Origin: Candidatus Methanoplasma cognatum
Lineage (GTDB): Archaea > Thermoplasmatota > Thermoplasmata > Methanomassiliicoccales > Methanomethylophilaceae
Reading direction: 5' to 3'
NCBI GenBank assembly: GCA_009777615.1
Contig: WRLM01000003.1
Span: forward strand, 124,001-188,000
Length of the DNA: 64,000 bases
Numbering within the stretch: the first letter of the stretch is position 1; each line of letters begins with the position of its first letter. A program made the translations under genes and the position numbers. A model generated the notes under the pieces. It was not told the origin of the DNA and did no database searches. It saw nothing but the letters and a program-made list of their open reading frames with translations. Shown piece by piece: positions 54,367-64,000 of this stretch.

Positions 54367-55095
54367 TCAATGCTGCAGGTCCTTCAGAATATCCTTTGCC
54401 TCTTCGCTGCCTCTCGCAGCCGCTTTTTTGAACCATTTCATGGCGTTGTTCTCGCTCTTCACCATTCCTTCCCCACTTAAAGACATCTTTCCGAGCTGCA
54501 GCATGGCATCCGGGCTCCCCTCCTCCGCGGCCTTTGCCAATATCTTTGCCGCCTTGTTCGGGTCCTTCTGTACCCCCCTTCCCTCAAAGATCATCATGCC
54601 CAGCCTGAACCTTGCCTTAGGGTGTCCTACCTCCGCACATTCAGCATATATCTTTAAGGCCTCTTTCTCATCGGCTGGTATCCCTCTGCCCTCTTCTTTC
54701 ATCACGCCTATCCTGTAATGAGCCGCGAGATTGCCGTTCTCGGCGGCCTTTGAATACCACGTCAGCGCCTCATTCCAGTCTTGTTCCGTTCCGAGGCCTT
54801 CGGAATACATGTGTGCGAGGTTGAACTGCGCCCTCACGTATCCCTGTTCGGCGGAGCATTTGTACAGCTTGAACGCTTTATCGGTGTCCTGGTAGGCACC
54901 ATACCCGTGCGCGAGCATGTATCCAAAGTTGCATTGCCCTTCCGGATCTCCCTGCCTCGCGGACAGCCTGAACCACATGAGGGCTTTCTCCATATCCTTT
55001 TGGACGCCGCTCCCGTCAAAGTAAATGTATCCCATCGCATTCTGCGCATGGGGATCGCCGCCGGACGCGGCATCCAGGACCTCTTTGAAACCCAA
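54367..55095 (-). CDS. Sel1-repeat protein, operon gene 3
   Basis: A 242-residue protein made almost entirely of Sel1-like (TPR-related) repeats, about six units of 36 residues, each with the pattern A.Y.LG.MY..G.GV..D...A..WF.KAA. No signal peptide or membrane segment. Sel1 arrays are scaffolds for protein-protein contact. It begins at TTG with a GAGGTGA ribosome-binding site, 4 bp after the stop of the upstream Sel1 gene, and is the last of three in one operon. The binding partners are unknown. Confidence 0.85.
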   Translation of the reverse strand: MGFKEVLDAASGGDPHAQNAMGYIYFDGSGVQKDMEKALMWFRLSARQGDPEGQCNFGYMLAHGYGAYQDTDKAFKLYKCSAEQGYVRAQFNLAHMYSEGLGTEQDWNEALTWYSKAAENGNLAAHYRIGVMKEEGRGIPADEKEALKIYAECAEVGHPKARFRLGMMIFEGRGVQKDPNKAAKILAKAAEEGSPDAMLQLGKMSLSGEGMVKSENNAMKWFKKAAARGSEEAKDILKDLQH

Positions 55096-55099
55096 AAGA

Positions 55100-56197
55100 T
55101 CACCTCACGATCACGGCCGAGTTCCTGACGTGTATCTCGGGATGCTCCATGTGCAGGCTGAGCCTGTAGTATGCTGTCAGATAACCGTTCGCGGCTGCCA
55201 TCGTATAGTATCTTATCGCCTCGTCCAGGCTTTTCTTCAGGCCCATCCCTTCTTCATAAAAAGTGCCGATGGTGAACTGAGCATCTTCGGAGCCCGCGAC
55301 CGAAGCCTTCATCATCAGCTCCAGGGCTTTCCTGTCGTTTCTTTTGACATGGATCCCGGCATGGTACATCATTGCCAGAGTGAACATCGAAAGAGGATCC
55401 CCCAATTCCGCCGATATCGTGTAGTTCTTGAACGCATTCTCTTCGTTTCCTATCTCGAAGAAATAATCAGCGGCGTTGAGCGCCTGTTCCCTGGCAAGCT
55501 TCTCTTTCTCGACGTCGGCGTTCATCAGGATGGATTCTCTCTCCTCCAGAGAATCATGCTTCCCTCCAGCGAGTGCGGAAAGGACGTACTGCCAGCACAT
55601 GAGACATTTCTCGTGCCCCATGTCCGCCCCCATCTTATACCACCTGCCCGCTTCGAAAAGATCGAATTCGACGTTGAACAGACCGTATTCGAAGTTCCGG
55701 CCTATCCAATAGAACAATTCCCCATTGCCTTTCAGTCCCGCCCTCGCATACCACTGCTCTTGCTCCGATATGTCCTGCCGGGTGCCGATCCCTCTCCCGT
55801 ACATGTATCCGGTCATGAACAGCGCCATCGGATCCCCTTGGATCGCGGCGGAGTGCATCCACTTTAACGCCGACACCTCGTCCCTCTTTATGTGGATCCC
55901 TTTCAGATATGTGAACCCTAACTCGACCTTTGCCTCTGGAACCCCGGCTTCGGCCGCGGCTTTGAGGTGGAAAACGAACATCGCGCCGTCCTTATTGGCT
56001 ATCGTTCCGTCCCGGAATATCTTTGCCAGCTCCCATTTGGCCCTCGAACATCCCGCTTCCGATGATTTGGTGTACCATTTCATCGCAAGTTCCGGATCCG
56101 GGTCTATGTTCTTCCCGTGGTGGTACATATAGGCAAGACCCAGCCTTGCGTAGGGGTTCCCCGTCTCAGCATCCTGGAATATCGTTCTCTTTGCCAT
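55100..56197 (-). CDS. Sel1-repeat protein, operon gene 2
   Basis: A 365-residue protein with about nine Sel1-like repeats in two blocks (residues 5-160 and about 235-350). They are separated by a less regular stretch rich in Glu and Lys (about 170-235) that may form a coiled linker. A GGAGGT ribosome-binding site precedes the ATG, 13 bp after the stop of the upstream Sel1 gene. No signal sequence. It ends MEHPEIHVRNSAVIVR after a last partial repeat. The function is unknown beyond a likely scaffold role. Confidence 0.85.
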   Translation of the reverse strand: MAKRTIFQDAETGNPYARLGLAYMYHHGKNIDPDPELAMKWYTKSSEAGCSRAKWELAKIFRDGTIANKDGAMFVFHLKAAAEAGVPEAKVELGFTYLKGIHIKRDEVSALKWMHSAAIQGDPMALFMTGYMYGRGIGTRQDISEQEQWYARAGLKGNGELFYWIGRNFEYGLFNVEFDLFEAGRWYKMGADMGHEKCLMCWQYVLSALAGGKHDSLEERESILMNADVEKEKLAREQALNAADYFFEIGNEENAFKNYTISAELGDPLSMFTLAMMYHAGIHVKRNDRKALELMMKASVAGSEDAQFTIGTFYEEGMGLKKSLDEAIRYYTMAAANGYLTAYYRLSLHMEHPEIHVRNSAVIVR

Positions 56198-56210
56198 GCC
56201 GTACCTCCTT

Positions 56211-57677
56211 TCAGCGTATCCTCTCCGCTTTTATCTTTCCGAGAAGCGTTTTTGCGTCGAGATCTCCCTGCTTAGCCGCCATAGACAGATATTTTTTTGC
56301 GCGAGGTATGTTCTTTTTCACGTGCTTGCCTTCCATATACAGTTTCCCAAGATAATACTGCCCTTCGGCGTATCCCGAATCGGCGGATTCATTGAGAAGT
56401 CTCATTCCTTCTTCGATGTCCTCCGCGACCCCGGAACCTGTGACATATATCATACCCAGGAAGGCTTTTGCTCCCGGATGCCCCTGCTCGGCCGCCTGTC
56501 CGAGCCATAACACAGCATCCTTTTCGCTCCTCTCCACTCCTCTTCCTTCGTAGTAGTAGCATCCCAGATAATACTGCGAGTTGGCCTCCCCCATCTCCGC
56601 CGCGTCCGTGAAATACTTTACGGCCATTTTGTCATCTTTTTTGTAATAGCTTCCTGTACCGTACATGCAGGCGAGCGCATACTGAGCGTATCCGTTGCAG
56701 GATGCGGCGGCCTTCTCGAACCATTTGGCCGCTTTTTCCAGATCCTGTTCTAGCACCTCTCCTTCAAATCTCATGTTCGCATAGTCGACCATTGCCTGCT
56801 GGAATCCCTGTTCGCAGGATGCTTCGAGATTCATTATCGCCTTGGCCTCGTTCCTTTTGACCCCTTTGCCGTAAGCGTACATCATGCCAAGCTGATACTG
56901 CGCCTCGCTGTGCCCGGATGCGGCGGCCTTCTCCATATACGCCGCGGACTTGGCGTCGCTGTGATATGATGTCTTCGGGACCATGTGTATGAATGCCAAG
57001 GCATACTGTGCATCGGCGTTGCCTGCGTCGGCCGCCTGCTGATACCACCTCACCGCTTCCTTCATATCCGTGTCCGAATAGCAGAGGCCGGCCTCATACA
57101 TCTCTCCGATATGGTACATTGCCTCGGAGCTGCCGTTCTCTGCCGCCTTACTCAGCCAATACACCGCCTTTTCCTTATCCTTACCGACACCTTTGCCCAT
57201 TAGATACATGAAACCGATCGTACACTGCGCGTGGACGTCATCCTCCTCGGCGCATACGGTGTACCATCTGACGGCTGCCCTGTGGCTTTTCTTGACGGGG
57301 GGCCTTCCTTCTGTGTACATCTCGAACAGCTCCCTGCAGGCATCGGTGTCCCTCTGTTCACCCCTGAGTTTAAGATCAAAGAGTGTGTCTGCGTCTTCCG
57401 CGCCGGCGCTTCTTCCGATCTCATCCATAGTCAGAGCGGCGTCCTCCCAGCCCGAAGCGGCGGACAGCGTCAGAAGCTCTTTTGCCGTGATCTCGTCCCT
57501 GATGACGGACGTTCCGGTGCGGAGGAACAGGGCATAAAGATACCGGGCTTCGCCGCTGCCCTCTGCGGATAACTTTTCCAGCATCTCCGCCGCCTTGTTC
57601 GGATCGTAATTCGGCGACGCGCAATCCATATGGGAACGCGCTTCCGAACAAGTGCTGTCATACCTCAACGTGGGCAT
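56211..57677 (-). CDS. Sel1-repeat protein, operon gene 1
   Basis: The largest of the set, 488 residues with about eleven to twelve Sel1-like repeats. They are very regular from residue 125 on (for example AVRWYQQAADAGNADAQYAL and AAKWFEKAAASCNGYAQYAL). The first 120 residues are more divergent. The ATG at 57677 has a strong GGAGG ribosome-binding site five bases upstream. The gene heads a three-gene Sel1 operon. No signal sequence is evident, so it is probably cytoplasmic. Confidence 0.87.
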   Translation of the reverse strand: MPTLRYDSTCSEARSHMDCASPNYDPNKAAEMLEKLSAEGSGEARYLYALFLRTGTSVIRDEITAKELLTLSAASGWEDAALTMDEIGRSAGAEDADTLFDLKLRGEQRDTDACRELFEMYTEGRPPVKKSHRAAVRWYTVCAEEDDVHAQCTIGFMYLMGKGVGKDKEKAVYWLSKAAENGSSEAMYHIGEMYEAGLCYSDTDMKEAVRWYQQAADAGNADAQYALAFIHMVPKTSYHSDAKSAAYMEKAAASGHSEAQYQLGMMYAYGKGVKRNEAKAIMNLEASCEQGFQQAMVDYANMRFEGEVLEQDLEKAAKWFEKAAASCNGYAQYALACMYGTGSYYKKDDKMAVKYFTDAAEMGEANSQYYLGCYYYEGRGVERSEKDAVLWLGQAAEQGHPGAKAFLGMIYVTGSGVAEDIEEGMRLLNESADSGYAEGQYYLGKLYMEGKHVKKNIPRAKKYLSMAAKQGDLDAKTLLGKIKAERIR

Positions 57678-58034
57678 AAGTCCTCCATATACCGAACAAG
57701 TTTATCATTTTAGCTACACTCGGATCCTTCTCCTCACCATCGATGCCCTTGAGGAAGAACGATACATACGAAATATCTCGCACTGACCAGAACGTTCCAA
57801 CACAGAGGGTTGTTAACACAAGAGAGATCATAACAGAGTAACGAATTTTCGTTTCCTCCGTGCACGGAAAGCGACGTATAGGAAACATCGGACAGCTCAA
57901 ACAATACAGATATTTGCCGCTGCCCGTGCTTTGATGAAAACATATTTCTGACGTAAACCGTCACCTTTGCAACGATTCCTGACAGGGACCGAAAAAGCAT
58001 AAGAATTATAACCGTCCTAACTCATTGCGCATCT
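57678..58034. other. Intergenic region between divergent Sel1 genes
   Basis: About 360 bp. An 80-codon minus-strand frame (57658-57900) runs into the Sel1 operon start, but its codon use (many GTT, TCT, CGT, ACT) differs from neighbouring genes and no domain is recognised. A TATA-like TAAAATGATAAAC (minus strand, about 57700-57713) would suit the Sel1 operon. Nothing else is evident. Confidence 0.4.
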
Positions 58035-58724
58035 ATGCACGAGGACTCTGGCATTCCGTTCGAAAGTCAGATGGAACCATTAGAGTGGGCTAAATTCATA
58101 ATCCGGACGAAGTCCGAAAAGAACTACCGTTCCGCTTTCTCTATACTGTCGTCCTCCGCGAACAGAGGGTCCTCCGACGCGGAATTCTATCTGGGCCTCC
58201 TTTATTCAAGAGGACAGGGCGTGAAAAAAGACCTTTCAGCGGCAAAATACTGGTTCGAACAAGCCTCTGATGACGGGAACCTTGGCGCGATGTATTTCTT
58301 GGGGAAAATGCACAGTAAAGGCTACGGGGCGGAAAAGGACGCCAAAAAAGCCATTTCTTTGCTGAACATGCCTGCGACGATGGGAGATCCCCGGGCCCAG
58401 TACGAACTCGGGCTGATCTATTTCGACGGGGACAGTGAAGAAAAGGATCTTTCCGCCGCAGTAGAATGGTTCACTGCGTCCGCCGAATCCGGCCATTCGG
58501 AGGCCCAGTTCATACTGGGGCAACTGTACAAGACCGGATACGGCGTAGAAAAGAACACCGAGAAGGCTCTGGACTGGCTCACTTCCGCCGCGATGAACAA
58601 GCACCGCGGCGCACAGATACTCCTCGGGAATATGTACGACACAGGGGACGGCGTTCCCGTGGATAAGGAAGAGGCCGACCGCTGGTACAGTATGAAGGAC
58701 GATGCGGTTATTTCAGCCCTCTGA
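58035..58724 (+). CDS. Sel1-repeat protein, divergent fourth copy
   Basis: A 229-residue protein with about five Sel1-like repeats from residue 35 on (for example AEFYLGLLYSRGQGVKKDLSAAKYWFEQA). A short N-terminal helix (MEPLEWAKFIIRTKSEKNYRSAF) comes first. It is divergent from the three-gene Sel1 operon and shares its intergenic region, so the four may respond to the same signal. The 3' end overlaps the convergent formate-tetrahydrofolate ligase gene by 17 bp. Likely a cytoplasmic adaptor. Confidence 0.85.
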   Translation: MHEDSGIPFESQMEPLEWAKFIIRTKSEKNYRSAFSILSSSANRGSSDAEFYLGLLYSRGQGVKKDLSAAKYWFEQASDDGNLGAMYFLGKMHSKGYGAEKDAKKAISLLNMPATMGDPRAQYELGLIYFDGDSEEKDLSAAVEWFTASAESGHSEAQFILGQLYKTGYGVEKNTEKALDWLTSAAMNKHRGAQILLGNMYDTGDGVPVDKEEADRWYSMKDDAVISAL

Positions 58725-60384
58725 CCTTTCCGTCTTCCGTCAGGTCCATCTTCATGGCGGCCGGAACCTTTGAGAGTCCGGGCATCAGCATCATCTCGCC
58801 ACAGATCGGCACTACGAATCCCGCCCCGGCGGAAACGGTGACCTCTCTCACGCTGAGCTTCCACCCTTTCGGGGCTCCTTTCATTTCGGCTACGTCGGAG
58901 AGAGAATACTGCGTCTTCGCCACGCATATCGGGAGTTTCCCGAACCCTTTATCCTCAAGGTTCTTAAGGGTCTTCTCCGCCTGGCCGGAATACACCACTC
59001 CGTCCGCGCCGTATATCCTGGTCGCGATGGTCTCGATCTTCTTTTTGAGAGGGACGTCGTCCTCATAAAGCATTTTGAAGTTCTTCTCCCCTCTTTCGAG
59101 GACCTCCACGACCTTCCTGGCAAGCTCCTCAGCGCCTTTCCCGCCTTCCATGAATGCGTCCGACTGAACGCATTCCGCTCCAAGCTCTCTGCAATGATCG
59201 CGGAGCATCTGCATGTGTTCCGGATTGTCGAAGGAGAAGTGGTTGATCGACACCACCACCGGAACCCCGTATCCTTTCACGTTCTCTATGTGCTTGTCGA
59301 GATTGGACAGGCCTTTTGTCAAAGCTTCTTTCGTCAGGGTCTCCGGCTTCTCGAGGTCCGCGCCTCCGTGCGTCATCAGCGCCCTCACGGATGCTACGAT
59401 GACGACGCAGTCGGGGGATATCCCCGCCTGCCTGCATACGATGTCCAGGAACTTCTCCCCTCCGAGGTCCGCGGCGAATCCCGCTTCGGTCACCGCATAA
59501 TCGCCGAGCTTCATGGCGTATTTCGTAGCTATCACGCTGTTGTTGCCGTGAGCTATGTTGGCGAAGGGGAACCCGTGAACGAACACCGGCTGGCCTTCCA
59601 AGGTCTGAACCAGATTGGGCTTTATCGCATCCTTGAGCAGTATCATCATTGCCCCGGCGCATCCCAGGTCCTTAACGGTCACCATCTCTCCCGTGTACGT
59701 GTACGCGACGACCATCCTCTCGATCCTCTCCCTGAGGTCTTTATAGCTTGTAGAAAGCGCGAGTATGGCCGAGATCTCGGATGCCGAAGTTATAAGAAAA
59801 CCGCTCTCGTGCATCACGCCGCCGGACAGCCTTCCTCCGCCGAGGCCGACAACTATCTCCCTGAGCTCGCGGCAGTTCATGTCCATCGCCTTCTTCAGAA
59901 CTATCTTGGACGGATCTATTCTGAGCGGGTTGTCCCTCACTAAGTTGTTCTCAAGGACGGCTGACAGAAGATTATGGGCGGATGACACCGCGTGTATGTC
60001 CCCGGTGAAATGAAGGTCGATGTCCCACATCGGATACACTTGGGAATACCCTCCGCCGGTGGCTCCTCCCTTGACGCCGAACGTTGGCCCCACGGACGGC
60101 TCTCTGAGCGCACCCACCACTTTTTTGCCTATGTGGCTGAGGCCCTGTATGAGGCCGATGGTCGTAACTGTCTTCCCCTCTCCTGCGGGGGTCGGAGTCA
60201 CGGCCGTGACCATTATCAGTTTCCCGTTCTTGTTGCCGTCGAATCTCGACAGGACGTCGAGCGGCACTTTTGCGATGTATTTTCCATACTGATCTATGTC
60301 TTCCGGCCTCAGACCTATTTTACCGGCGATGTCCGTTATGTTCATGACGTTGGCTTCTTCTTCTATCTGAATGTCGTCCTTCAT
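58708..60384 (-). CDS. fhs: Formate-tetrahydrofolate ligase
   Basis: Makes 10-formyl-tetrahydrofolate from formate, ATP and tetrahydrofolate, supplying one-carbon units for purines. The 558 residues match the family throughout, with the P-loop TPTPAGEGKTVTTIGL near residue 60, FGVKGGATGGGYSQV, FTGDIHAVSSAHNLLSA, GGRLSGGVMHESGF, and the PVVVSINHF segment. Full length. The start MKDDIQIEEEA agrees with family N-termini. Folate-type rather than methanopterin-type C1 transfer has been noted in Methanomassiliicoccales, which lack the full CO2-reduction branch; its presence here supports that assignment. A TATA-like CTTTTTTATGG lies at about 60412-60424. Confidence 0.95.
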   Translation of the reverse strand: MKDDIQIEEEANVMNITDIAGKIGLRPEDIDQYGKYIAKVPLDVLSRFDGNKNGKLIMVTAVTPTPAGEGKTVTTIGLIQGLSHIGKKVVGALREPSVGPTFGVKGGATGGGYSQVYPMWDIDLHFTGDIHAVSSAHNLLSAVLENNLVRDNPLRIDPSKIVLKKAMDMNCRELREIVVGLGGGRLSGGVMHESGFLITSASEISAILALSTSYKDLRERIERMVVAYTYTGEMVTVKDLGCAGAMMILLKDAIKPNLVQTLEGQPVFVHGFPFANIAHGNNSVIATKYAMKLGDYAVTEAGFAADLGGEKFLDIVCRQAGISPDCVVIVASVRALMTHGGADLEKPETLTKEALTKGLSNLDKHIENVKGYGVPVVVSINHFSFDNPEHMQMLRDHCRELGAECVQSDAFMEGGKGAEELARKVVEVLERGEKNFKMLYEDDVPLKKKIETIATRIYGADGVVYSGQAEKTLKNLEDKGFGKLPICVAKTQYSLSDVAEMKGAPKGWKLSVREVTVSAGAGFVVPICGEMMLMPGLSKVPAAMKMDLTEDGKVRGLK

Positions 60385-61340: not shown

Positions 61341-61400
61341 TCATTTATCTTCAGGGTCGGTGTATACGTAATCAGGATCTATGTACCTATACTCACTCAT
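61341..61400 (-). pseudogene. Remnant of a Fic-family toxin gene (first 19 codons)
   Basis: A 19-codon frame beginning MSEYRYIDPDYVYTDPEDK and then a stop. The stretch YIDPDYVYTDP is what Fic-domain proteins of this lineage show at their N-terminus, before a GVLRN-type segment. The start overlaps the end of the antitoxin-like gene by 8 bp, the usual layout of such pairs. The rest of the toxin (about 200 residues or more) is absent; the HAD gene ends only 57 bp beyond. A real micro-protein is possible but less likely. Confidence 0.45.
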
Positions 61401-61608
61401 AAGATCTCTCTGCCGCAAAGGCCGCCAACTGTTCGATCGTCAACTTACCTAGACAATAGTCTCGAATGATCTCGATCCCCCTGCGTGTCGGACAGAATCC
61501 CTCGAACATATTGGACCCTATCGCCGCCGCTGTAATTTCCAGTGTCTCCAGATCGGGGAACTTTACTGCGCAGTCTGAGGGGCTGGGTGTCTGCCGGATT
61601 TCAGACAC
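61393..61608 (-). CDS. Fic antitoxin-like small protein (VbhA-type)
   Basis: About 71 residues from a GTG at 61608; the frame stays open up to 61830 and the start is uncertain. The core ITAAAIGSNMFEGF contains S-N-M-F-E-G, which fits the (S/T)xxxE(G/N) inhibitory motif that blocks the Fic active site. It is followed by TRRGIEIIRDYCLGKLTIEQL, the helical pattern seen in VbhA-type antitoxins. With its toxin reduced to a stub, the gene is probably a relic, or it may guard against a Fic protein encoded elsewhere. The upstream stretch to 61992 shows only the promoter of the Hsp70-VWA gene. Confidence 0.5.
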   Translation of the reverse strand: MSEIRQTPSPSDCAVKFPDLETLEITAAAIGSNMFEGFCPTRRGIEIIRDYCLGKLTIEQLAAFAAERSYE

Positions 61609-61992
61609 TGAGTTCACAGCTCTGCGGAAGCAACGGATCAGGTCCCGGCAAAGTCCGGAGCGGGACGCCGCACAGCCGTAAGGGGCTATTTCTCCGTCAC
61701 TTTCGCATACGGTTGAAAGGTGACAATATGTCAGCAATTTAGTCAGCGCATTCCGGCATCTAATAGAAAACCTCTTCGGTCCTTTAGCAACGTAAATATC
61801 CCTTCCTGTTTCCTGCTGGCATATCAGCAATGAATGGTCATCAGCGTATGGCGCCGGATGCTTCTGCGGTTTTCGTATCGGCGGATGAGGGTTTAAAAAA
61901 TTAATCCTGCCGCTTGACTTGGATTTCGAAATTCGTAGCGGCCCGTCAAACCTATTTTATATCGCGTTATACATATCTCCTACTGATGGGAT

Positions 61993-64000
61993 ATGAAGGT
62001 GGGTATAGACCTAGGAACAACGTACTCTACAGTTGCAAGATATGACAGAAAGAACTCCAGGCCCGAGATCATCAACAATAAGTTCGAAAAGGAACTGACC
62101 CCTTCGGTCATATGCTTTTTGGACAACGGTGAGGTCCTGATTGGCGAGGATGCAAAGGATATGCAGGCCGGCGGCGCCGGGACCATAGCGGCATCTTTCA
62201 AGAGAGGCATGGGGGACAACAGCTTCACTGTCGAGGCGCACGGTAAAGTGTACATGGCGGAAGACCTTTCCGCAATGCTGCTGAAAAAATTGATATCTGA
62301 TGCGGAAGAGCGGACCGGGGAGAAGATAGATTCGGTGGTGATCACCGTCCCCGCGTACTTCAACGACTTCCAGAGAACCGCGACGATCCGCGCCGGAGAG
62401 GCGTGCGGCGTCAAGGTCATGAAGATCATAAACGAACCGACCGCTGCCGCGATATCGTACGGATACAACAGAGAATCCAATAAGACCGTAATGGTCTATG
62501 ACCTCGGAGGCGGGACCTTCGACGTCACGCTGGTGAAGGTCGAGAAAGGTAACATCAAGGTACTCGGAACGGACGGCAACCACATACTCGGAGGAAAGGA
62601 CTGGGACGCAGCTATCGTCAAATTTGTCTGCGAACAGTTCTACGAAGAATACGGCGTGGATCCGAGGGACGACGAGCCTACCAAGAACGAATTGATCGTG
62701 GCGTCTGAAAACTATAAGAAGATACTCACCAAGACCGACAGCGTCACCATACAGATAAAATACGAAGGGTACGCGAGCAAATATACGCTTACAAGAGAGC
62801 AGTTCGACACCCGGACGCAGTTCCTCCTCAACGCCACGAAGGACGTCTGCATGAAATTGTTCAGCGACCTCGGGGTGTCCTGGGGAGATGTTGATGAGAT
62901 ACTTCTCGTAGGAGGTTCTACGAGAATGCCTCAGGTTACCGAATTCCTGGAAAGGATATCGGGAAAGCCGGTGATAGATCACTCTGACACCGACCTTGCG
63001 GTGGCGAAGGGCGCCGCCCTTACGTCCGAATTCTATTGCAGCACAAGCACCGGAGTAAGGGAGATGCAGATATCTGACGTAACTGCGCACAGCCTCGGCG
63101 CCTTGTCGGTGAGTCCGGGAGGAGACCGGTACATCAACGAGATAATGATCAAAAGGAACTCCAAGATCCCATCCTCGGTAAAGAAGCCTTTCAGGATAGA
63201 GCCCGGCAATCAGACGGACATCATCGAAGTGTATACTCTCCAAGGCGAGAGCAGGATGCCTCTGGACTGCTATGTGCTTGCCAAGGTGGTCATCTCCGGA
63301 TTCTACAACCCCGGCGACGGCGCGATCATAGATATAGAATACAACTACGACGAGAACGGGGTCGTGAAGGTCTCCGCGACCCAGGATGGGGAGCTTCTGC
63401 AAGTGGATTCAGAGCCTGTCCCCGGCGACATCTCATGGATGAGTGAAAGGCCGAAGGAAAGATCATCGGGCGCGCCTATAGCGAAGAACGTCGTCCTCTG
63501 CATCGACCTGTCCAGAAGCATGAGGAACTCACTTGAAGAGGTAAAGAAGACAGTCAACGATTTCGTCATGACGGTAGCTAGCGATAACACGAAGTTCGGA
63601 CTCGTAGGGTTCGGCGACAAGGTCGGCATAATGAGGGATATGACCGGCGATCCCAACATGATCGTCACCGCCCTCGACGGCCTGAAAGTGAACGTCTACG
63701 GGAGAGGCACGGACGCCAGCCCGATGGGCACGGCGGCGACGATGCTGTCCAACCGCCCCGGAGGTAAGATGATCCTCATTCTCACAGACGGGATCTGGGG
63801 AAAGAGGGACTTCGCCGTCAGCGAAGCGATCAACTGCAGAAACTCGAAGATCGCCGTCGTGGCGGTGGGTATAGGCGAGGCGGATCTTGGCTTCCTTAAA
63901 CAGATATCGACCGTTGAGGAAGGCGCGATGTTCACCACCCTGGACCGTTTGGGAGAGGCGTTCAGCACGATCGCCACGGCCATCGGCTCCGGTTCGATGG
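61993..64000 (+). CDS. Hsp70 (DnaK-like) fused to a von Willebrand factor A domain, cut by window edge
   Basis: A large fusion; 669 codons are visible and the frame is open to the edge. Residues 1-370 are an Hsp70 ATPase domain: VGIDLGTTYSTVA (phosphate 1), VITVPAYFNDFQR, NEPTAAAISYG, DLGGGTFDVTLV (phosphate 2), LLVGGSTRMPQV (adenosine). A shortened substrate-binding beta-domain follows (about 375-480). Where DnaK would have its helical lid, a VWA domain begins at about residue 497 with a full metal site: DLSRSM (506), a Thr in GRGTDASPMGTA, and LTDGIWG. A TATA box (TTTTATATCG, about 61952) and a GATGGGAT ribosome-binding site precede the ATG. It may recognise or remodel clients through metal-dependent adhesion. 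Confidence 0.88.
   Translation, partial: MKVGIDLGTTYSTVARYDRKNSRPEIINNKFEKELTPSVICFLDNGEVLIGEDAKDMQAGGAGTIAASFKRGMGDNSFTVEAHGKVYMAEDLSAMLLKKLISDAEERTGEKIDSVVITVPAYFNDFQRTATIRAGEACGVKVMKIINEPTAAAISYGYNRESNKTVMVYDLGGGTFDVTLVKVEKGNIKVLGTDGNHILGGKDWDAAIVKFVCEQFYEEYGVDPRDDEPTKNELIVASENYKKILTKTDSVTIQIKYEGYASKYTLTREQFDTRTQFLLNATKDVCMKLFSDLGVSWGDVDEILLVGGSTRMPQVTEFLERISGKPVIDHSDTDLAVAKGAALTSEFYCSTSTGVREMQISDVTAHSLGALSVSPGGDRYINEIMIKRNSKIPSSVKKPFRIEPGNQTDIIEVYTLQGESRMPLDCYVLAKVVISGFYNPGDGAIIDIEYNYDENGVVKVSATQDGELLQVDSEPVPGDISWMSERPKERSSGAPIAKNVVLCIDLSRSMRNSLEEVKKTVNDFVMTVASDNTKFGLVGFGDKVGIMRDMTGDPNMIVTALDGLKVNVYGRGTDASPMGTAATMLSNRPGGKMILILTDGIWGKRDFAVSEAINCRNSKIAVVAVGIGEADLGFLKQISTVEEGAMFTTLDRLGEAFSTIATAIGSGSM

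Follow-up and report, generated by a model that had tools for sequence, protein, structure and literature searches.

The gene at the end of the window, as we call the whole 64,000-nucleotide stretch of DNA analysed here, encodes an Hsp70-like protein with a VWA domain in the position of the helical lid, and it belongs to an operon that also encodes a DO-GTPase. The placement of this Hsp70-VWA protein within a DO-GTPase/HSP70 system is well supported, and in our view it is probably the lid-swapped Hsp70 of a GAP1-N2/HSP70-type DO-GTPase system, acting as an ATP/GTP-controlled switch of assembly near the membrane; its mechanism and biological role we infer. In the textbook Hsp70 cycle the lid plays a central part, and nature, in a conserved Hsp70 that has traded it for a VWA domain with a metal site, provides a test of lid function.

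The Hsp70-VWA protein and its missing lid

A single open frame covers all of the gene that lies in the window (Table 1), and Pfam assigns residues 3-467 of its product to HSP70 (E 2.7e-110) and residues 499-649 to VWA (E 2e-14). An AlphaFold2 model built from 53 sequences (mean pLDDT 87), which supersedes an earlier one from 12 close sequences (pLDDT 67), contains an Hsp70 nucleotide-binding domain, a beta substrate-binding domain and a Rossmann-type VWA domain at 498-666, the last mostly at pLDDT 87-94. A structure search with the 53-sequence model found viral VWFA-domain proteins and Hsp70s, and Foldseek against the PDB with the 12-sequence model found Hsp70s only, among the top 50 matches listed. 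Thus Pfam and the model agree with the sequence-only reading that an Hsp70 ATPase and substrate domain is joined in frame to a VWA domain, and the C-terminal part, for which a different fold had been named as the refuting outcome, is predicted to be of VWA fold. The further domains which that reading had thought possible past the window do not exist, as the VWA domain is followed only by a 28-residue Gly/Arg tail, disordered in the model.

In an alignment with the DnaK of the same genome, the end of the substrate-binding domain and the start of the VWA domain coincide with the start of the DnaK lid, and the alpha-helical lid is missing, so the protein is an Hsp70-like chimera and not a DnaK; alignment and model together bear out the earlier claim that a VWA domain with metal motifs stands in the place of the lid. 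The EEVD tail, the loss of which had also been pointed out, belongs to eukaryotic cytosolic Hsp70, and its absence here is therefore uninformative. Moreover, the interdomain linker reads MQISD in the fusion, VLLLD in DnaK-type proteins and LLLD in the genome's own DnaK, and judging from this difference the coupling of the nucleotide-binding to the substrate-binding domain may be altered or weakened.

The nucleotide motifs of DnaK, all kept as previously noted, are invariant in 21 diverse members (D6, K70, E148, D170 and G172-T175), and from its sequence the Hsp70 part is apparently active as an ATPase. The DxSxS-T-DG set of the VWA domain, described earlier as intact, is indeed complete: D505, S507, S509 and T598-D599-G600 are likewise invariant in the 21 members, and the third MIDAS residue, T573, varies between T and N. 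In VWA domains it is typically an acidic residue of the ligand that completes the coordination of the metal, and by analogy it is plausible that the predicted site grips a target. Furthermore, every domain of Hsp70-VWA is under strong purifying selection, dN of the VWA part among close relatives being about 0.03-0.14 against a dS of about 0.9 or more. Such values, well below dS, and a frame unbroken in dozens of independent genomes speak against an assembly error or frameshift that fused two genes, and since dozens of assemblies, obtained independently and from both archaea and bacteria, have the same fusion, this explanation can practically be dismissed. In-frame TGA codons inside the matches of several genomes are no sign of recoding; in these cases the search ran past the normal end of the gene.

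Table 1. Features of the Hsp70-VWA gene and of its operon. Genes 2-5 and the membrane DO-GTPase lie past the window and are given in L005 coordinates (window coordinate = L005 coordinate + 58999).
Feature	Position	Strand	Residues or length	Evidence or remark
Hsp70-VWA gene (gene 1)	61993..64000 within the window; stop ends at window-equivalent 64077	+	694 aa	77 bases past the window
Hsp70 nucleotide-binding domain (NBD)	61993..63057	+	1-355	Pfam, alignment, model
Beta substrate-binding domain (SBD)	63076..63426	+	362-478	DnaK alignment, model
Short helical stub and linker, at DnaK lid start	63427..63483	+	479-497	Alignment with own DnaK, model
VWA domain	63484..63990	+	498-666	Pfam, model, viral-library fold matches
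MIDAS motif 1, DLSRS	63505..63519	+	505-509	D505, S507, S509 invariant, n=21
MIDAS motif 2, T573	63709..63711	+	573	T or N in relatives
MIDAS motif 3, TDG	63784..63792	+	598-600	Invariant, n=21
Zinc-ribbon/FN3-like scaffold (gene 2)	L005 5078-8113	+	1011 aa
DO-GTPase2 (gene 3)	L005 8118-9383	+
GrpE-like factor (gene 4)	L005 9380-10162	+
Lidless Hsp70 (gene 5)	L005 10159-11742	+		Pfam, DnaK alignment
Membrane DO-GTPase2	L005 13651-15180	-

The operon and its distribution

The fusion is the first gene of a tight operon in which genes 1 and 2, 3 and 4, and 4 and 5 overlap. The scaffold has zinc ribbons with invariant cysteines, weak TPR-like matches and weak matches to fn3, titin and tenascin; a J-domain, considered as a candidate, was not detected on it by Pfam, profile comparison (probability 0.3%) or a PDB sequence search. 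There are two DO-GTPases, with zinc ribbons, one of them membrane-bound: in this genus it has TM-like segments and usually lies about 2 kb downstream on the opposite strand. Both Hsp70s of the operon keep the catalytic residues. Elsewhere in the genome a separate, ordinary cluster encodes thermosome, GrpE, DnaK (with its lid) and DnaJ, which makes the Hsp70-VWA operon a second, dedicated Hsp70 set. Hence a general proteostasis Hsp70 that gained the VWA domain as a harmless adaptor is unlikely in our estimation; two catalytically complete Hsp70s with a GrpE-like factor would suit it, but a full DnaK-DnaJ-GrpE set is already in place, the linkage to GTPases is constant and the metal motifs are invariant. 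GAP1-M was not found in the window's own genome by a search that gave a match in a control genome, a MoxR AAA+ ATPase is absent among the operon's proteins, PADLOC matched none of the six proteins, and the locus has no recognisable killing domain and no obvious effector gene.

The 694-residue fusion has no TM-like segment. This bears on the surface or adhesion chaperone that the sequence-only reading had proposed: VWA domains are common in adhesins, but with no TM-like segment, partners of cytoplasmic type (GrpE-like factor and GTPases) and a gene always found with those for a DO-GTPase and the scaffold, we hold such a stand-alone function to be very improbable. The missing segment and the constant DO-GTPase, scaffold and Hsp70 partners point instead to an NTP switch of the DO-GTPase/GAP1 kind that works inside the cell and near the membrane.

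Upstream of the operon, window positions 61393-61830 on the reverse strand encode a small protein with a sub-threshold C-terminal match to the antitoxin VbhA, and at 54367-58724 four Sel1-repeat proteins in a row adjoin a formate-THF ligase gene (58708-60384). In two relatives that do not have the VWA system (L048 and L051), a lidless Hsp70 that groups with operon gene 5 (support 97/99) lies directly beside Sel1 and formate-THF ligase genes, and a partnership of Hsp70 with Sel1 proteins is possible. The lidless Hsp70 of another relative (L044:8887-10467) carries one in-frame TAG, at residue 268, which is a lysine in the window genome. In methanogens of this order TAG encodes pyrrolysine, and the codon may be read as pyrrolysine here, or it may reflect an error in sequencing or a gene that is broken. 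In addition, in L049:1893-13964 and L052:528-8201 a divergent Hsp70 adjoins a coiled-coil zinc-ribbon protein, two CARF-like/HTH proteins and a large helicase-like ATPase, followed in L049 by Cas9-like and Cas1-like proteins and repeat-bearing ORFs; read by eye, this looks like a different Hsp70-containing defence island.

The fusion occurs in 65 of 102 Methanomethylophilaceae genomes (34 of the 45 of good quality) and in 5 of the 14 genera of the family, including nearly all sampled genomes of its own genus. Its named relatives come from Methanomassiliicoccaceae, Candidatus Methanoplasma and Methanomethylophilaceae, several of them termite-type isolates or from ruminant gut samples. As to recurring neighbours, which the sequence-only reading had advised to look for, each of the 38 archaeal loci keeps the gene order to the limits of its contig, GrpE being missing in one genus, and the fusion is always accompanied by the DO-GTPase and the scaffold, usually by the GrpE-like factor and, wherever the contig extends far enough, by the second, lidless Hsp70. 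Beyond the archaea, sampling covered Actinomycetota and Planctomycetota. Four of 300 genomes from the class that includes Eggerthellaceae have the fusion, one from an Eggerthellaceae genome that came up in the first scan and three added by the search of the class. A search of 347 Actinomycetota genomes gave no further one at the threshold applied, and 294 Planctomycetota genomes gave VWA-only matches and no fusion. Carriage by viruses or plasmids was considered and rejected, with no relative in viral contigs, no full-length plasmid match and one weak, VWA-only phage match.

Two of the four bacterial loci include GAP1. Locus L131 encodes, on one strand, a TM-GTPase, GrpE, a lidless Hsp70, Hsp70-VWA, the scaffold, a DO-GTPase and an 887 aa GAP1 protein (GAP1-N2 and GAP1-M by Pfam), and L132 has the same gene set, its GrpE-like coiled-coil ORF having been read from the sequence; L091 and L130 are reduced loci in which GAP1 was not seen. 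In the Eggerthellaceae locus L091 (16999-18228) a transglutaminase-like protein, perhaps an effector, follows the DO-GTPase, and a similar reading exists near the same place in L130. Among the archaea, GAP1 stands beside divergent copies of the fusion in L136 and L140, and it is present in 7 of the 102 family genomes, all of one genus; six of the 7 carry two fusion matches, one of which has GAP1 within a few kb. The tree unites all fusions in a single clade (100/98), which comprises a bacterial clade (100/100) and an archaeal clade (100/96), and the GAP1-bearing archaeal pair is sister to the remaining archaeal fusions. With this rooting the simplest history would be one fusion event and an ancestral GAP1 that the common archaeal lineage later lost.

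Predicted mechanism and role

In the proposed mechanism the Hsp70 part would be the motor and the VWA domain the partner-binding module. As the Hsp70 domain binds and hydrolyses ATP, the hold of the substrate-binding and VWA domains on a partner, at a segment that is acidic or extended, would change; ADP would be recycled with the help of the GrpE-like protein, and the GTPases would control the time and the membrane-near place at which the complex assembles or comes apart. In this the protein might resemble MoxR-VWA machines, where a peptide captured by the VWA protein is remodelled by the ATPase (Kaur et al. 2020, PMC7159879), except that its motor would be an Hsp70 and part of the same chain. 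A more specific idea, which we put forward only tentatively, is that the VWA domain serves as a replacement lid gated by metal, a Mg2+-dependent clamp over or beside the peptide groove that opens and closes with the ATP state of the Hsp70; it is equally speculative that, within this replacement-lid reading, motor and VWA were independently joined in one polypeptide in the MoxR-VWA fashion, under GTPase control. Together with the lidless sister Hsp70 and the GrpE-like partner of its operon, the fusion would also offer a test of the ways in which ATP allostery can be coupled to a different gripping module.

What such a switch serves can be weighed from its distribution. The archaeal form without GAP1 could well be a domesticated housekeeping machine, for example for the assembly of membrane or envelope proteins, that has lost its conflict role, and we give this idea considerable though less than even weight. 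The frequency in the family and in its good-quality genomes, the fixed operon order, the strong purifying selection, the membrane GTPase at a constant place in the genus, the restriction of GAP1 to 7 genomes and the lack of any variable effector seen all lean toward it. Yet second copies with GAP1 persist in some genomes, and absence from 9 of the 14 genera of the family means that the system is dispensable. A functioning anti-virus or conflict system as conceived by Kaur et al., with Hsp70-VWA as the sensor of a foreign protein or the builder of a polymer-like effector complex, seems to us possible but rather doubtful: membership of the class, the role in multimeric assemblies that these authors propose for HSP70 (PMC7159879) and the sporadic spread across domains of life favour it, against the absence of PADLOC matches and of a killing domain reported above and the conserved distribution within archaea. 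For either role, the lid-swapped Hsp70 would give a compact, single-operon entry to DO-GTPase systems, whose function is predicted, in gut and termite methanogens, some carriers of the system among them having single-contig genomes.

Comparison with known systems

Apart from the VWA domain, the CnuD or McrB-fused Hsp70-like proteins of CoCoNuT systems (PMC11090510) resemble the fusion in placing an Hsp70 NBD/SBD unit in a predicted NTP-driven conflict system, but the Walker A-like motifs of CnuD are degenerate and its Hsp70 unit is fused to McrB/McrC parts instead of VWA. With DnaK/Hsp70 the protein shares the nucleotide-binding domain, the beta substrate-binding domain and all catalytic residues, and it differs in having a VWA domain instead of the helical lid and an altered interdomain linker. 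MoxR-VWA ternary systems and those of the RavA-ViaA type likewise pair a VWA metal-site domain with a remodelling ATPase, which is a hexameric AAA+ ring there and an Hsp70 motor in the same chain here, in an operon that has no MoxR gene.

The closest match is with the GTPase-centric conflict systems that Kaur et al. (2020, PMC7159879) predicted on the basis of DO-GTPases and GAP1 and that include an FNIII component; in these, HSP70 with GrpE, and sometimes a second HSP70, occurs in about 14% of GAP1-N2 neighbourhoods. The literature searched holds no experiment on any DO-GTPase/HSP70 system, the parent class being itself a prediction, and no other description of an Hsp70-VWA fusion; the text of Kaur et al., in the parts considered here, has no mention of VWA fused to HSP70, and its figures or supplements may hold an earlier notice. 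The hosts here are methanogens, the window genome lacks GAP1, one of the two defining parts, and no DnaJ domain was found on the scaffold; the FNIII component of the described HSP70 theme has a DnaJ domain or TPR, and of these the scaffold shows a weak TPR-like match. Shared with that theme, as far as it is described there, are the soluble and membrane DO-GTPase2, HSP70 with GrpE, the second Hsp70 and a zinc-ribbon scaffold that is FN3-like by weak matches, and GAP1 itself is present in the full bacterial loci and in some archaeal ones. Thus the HSP70 theme of DO-GTPase systems is already known, by prediction, and what the sequences compared here add to it is a VWA domain in the place of the lid.
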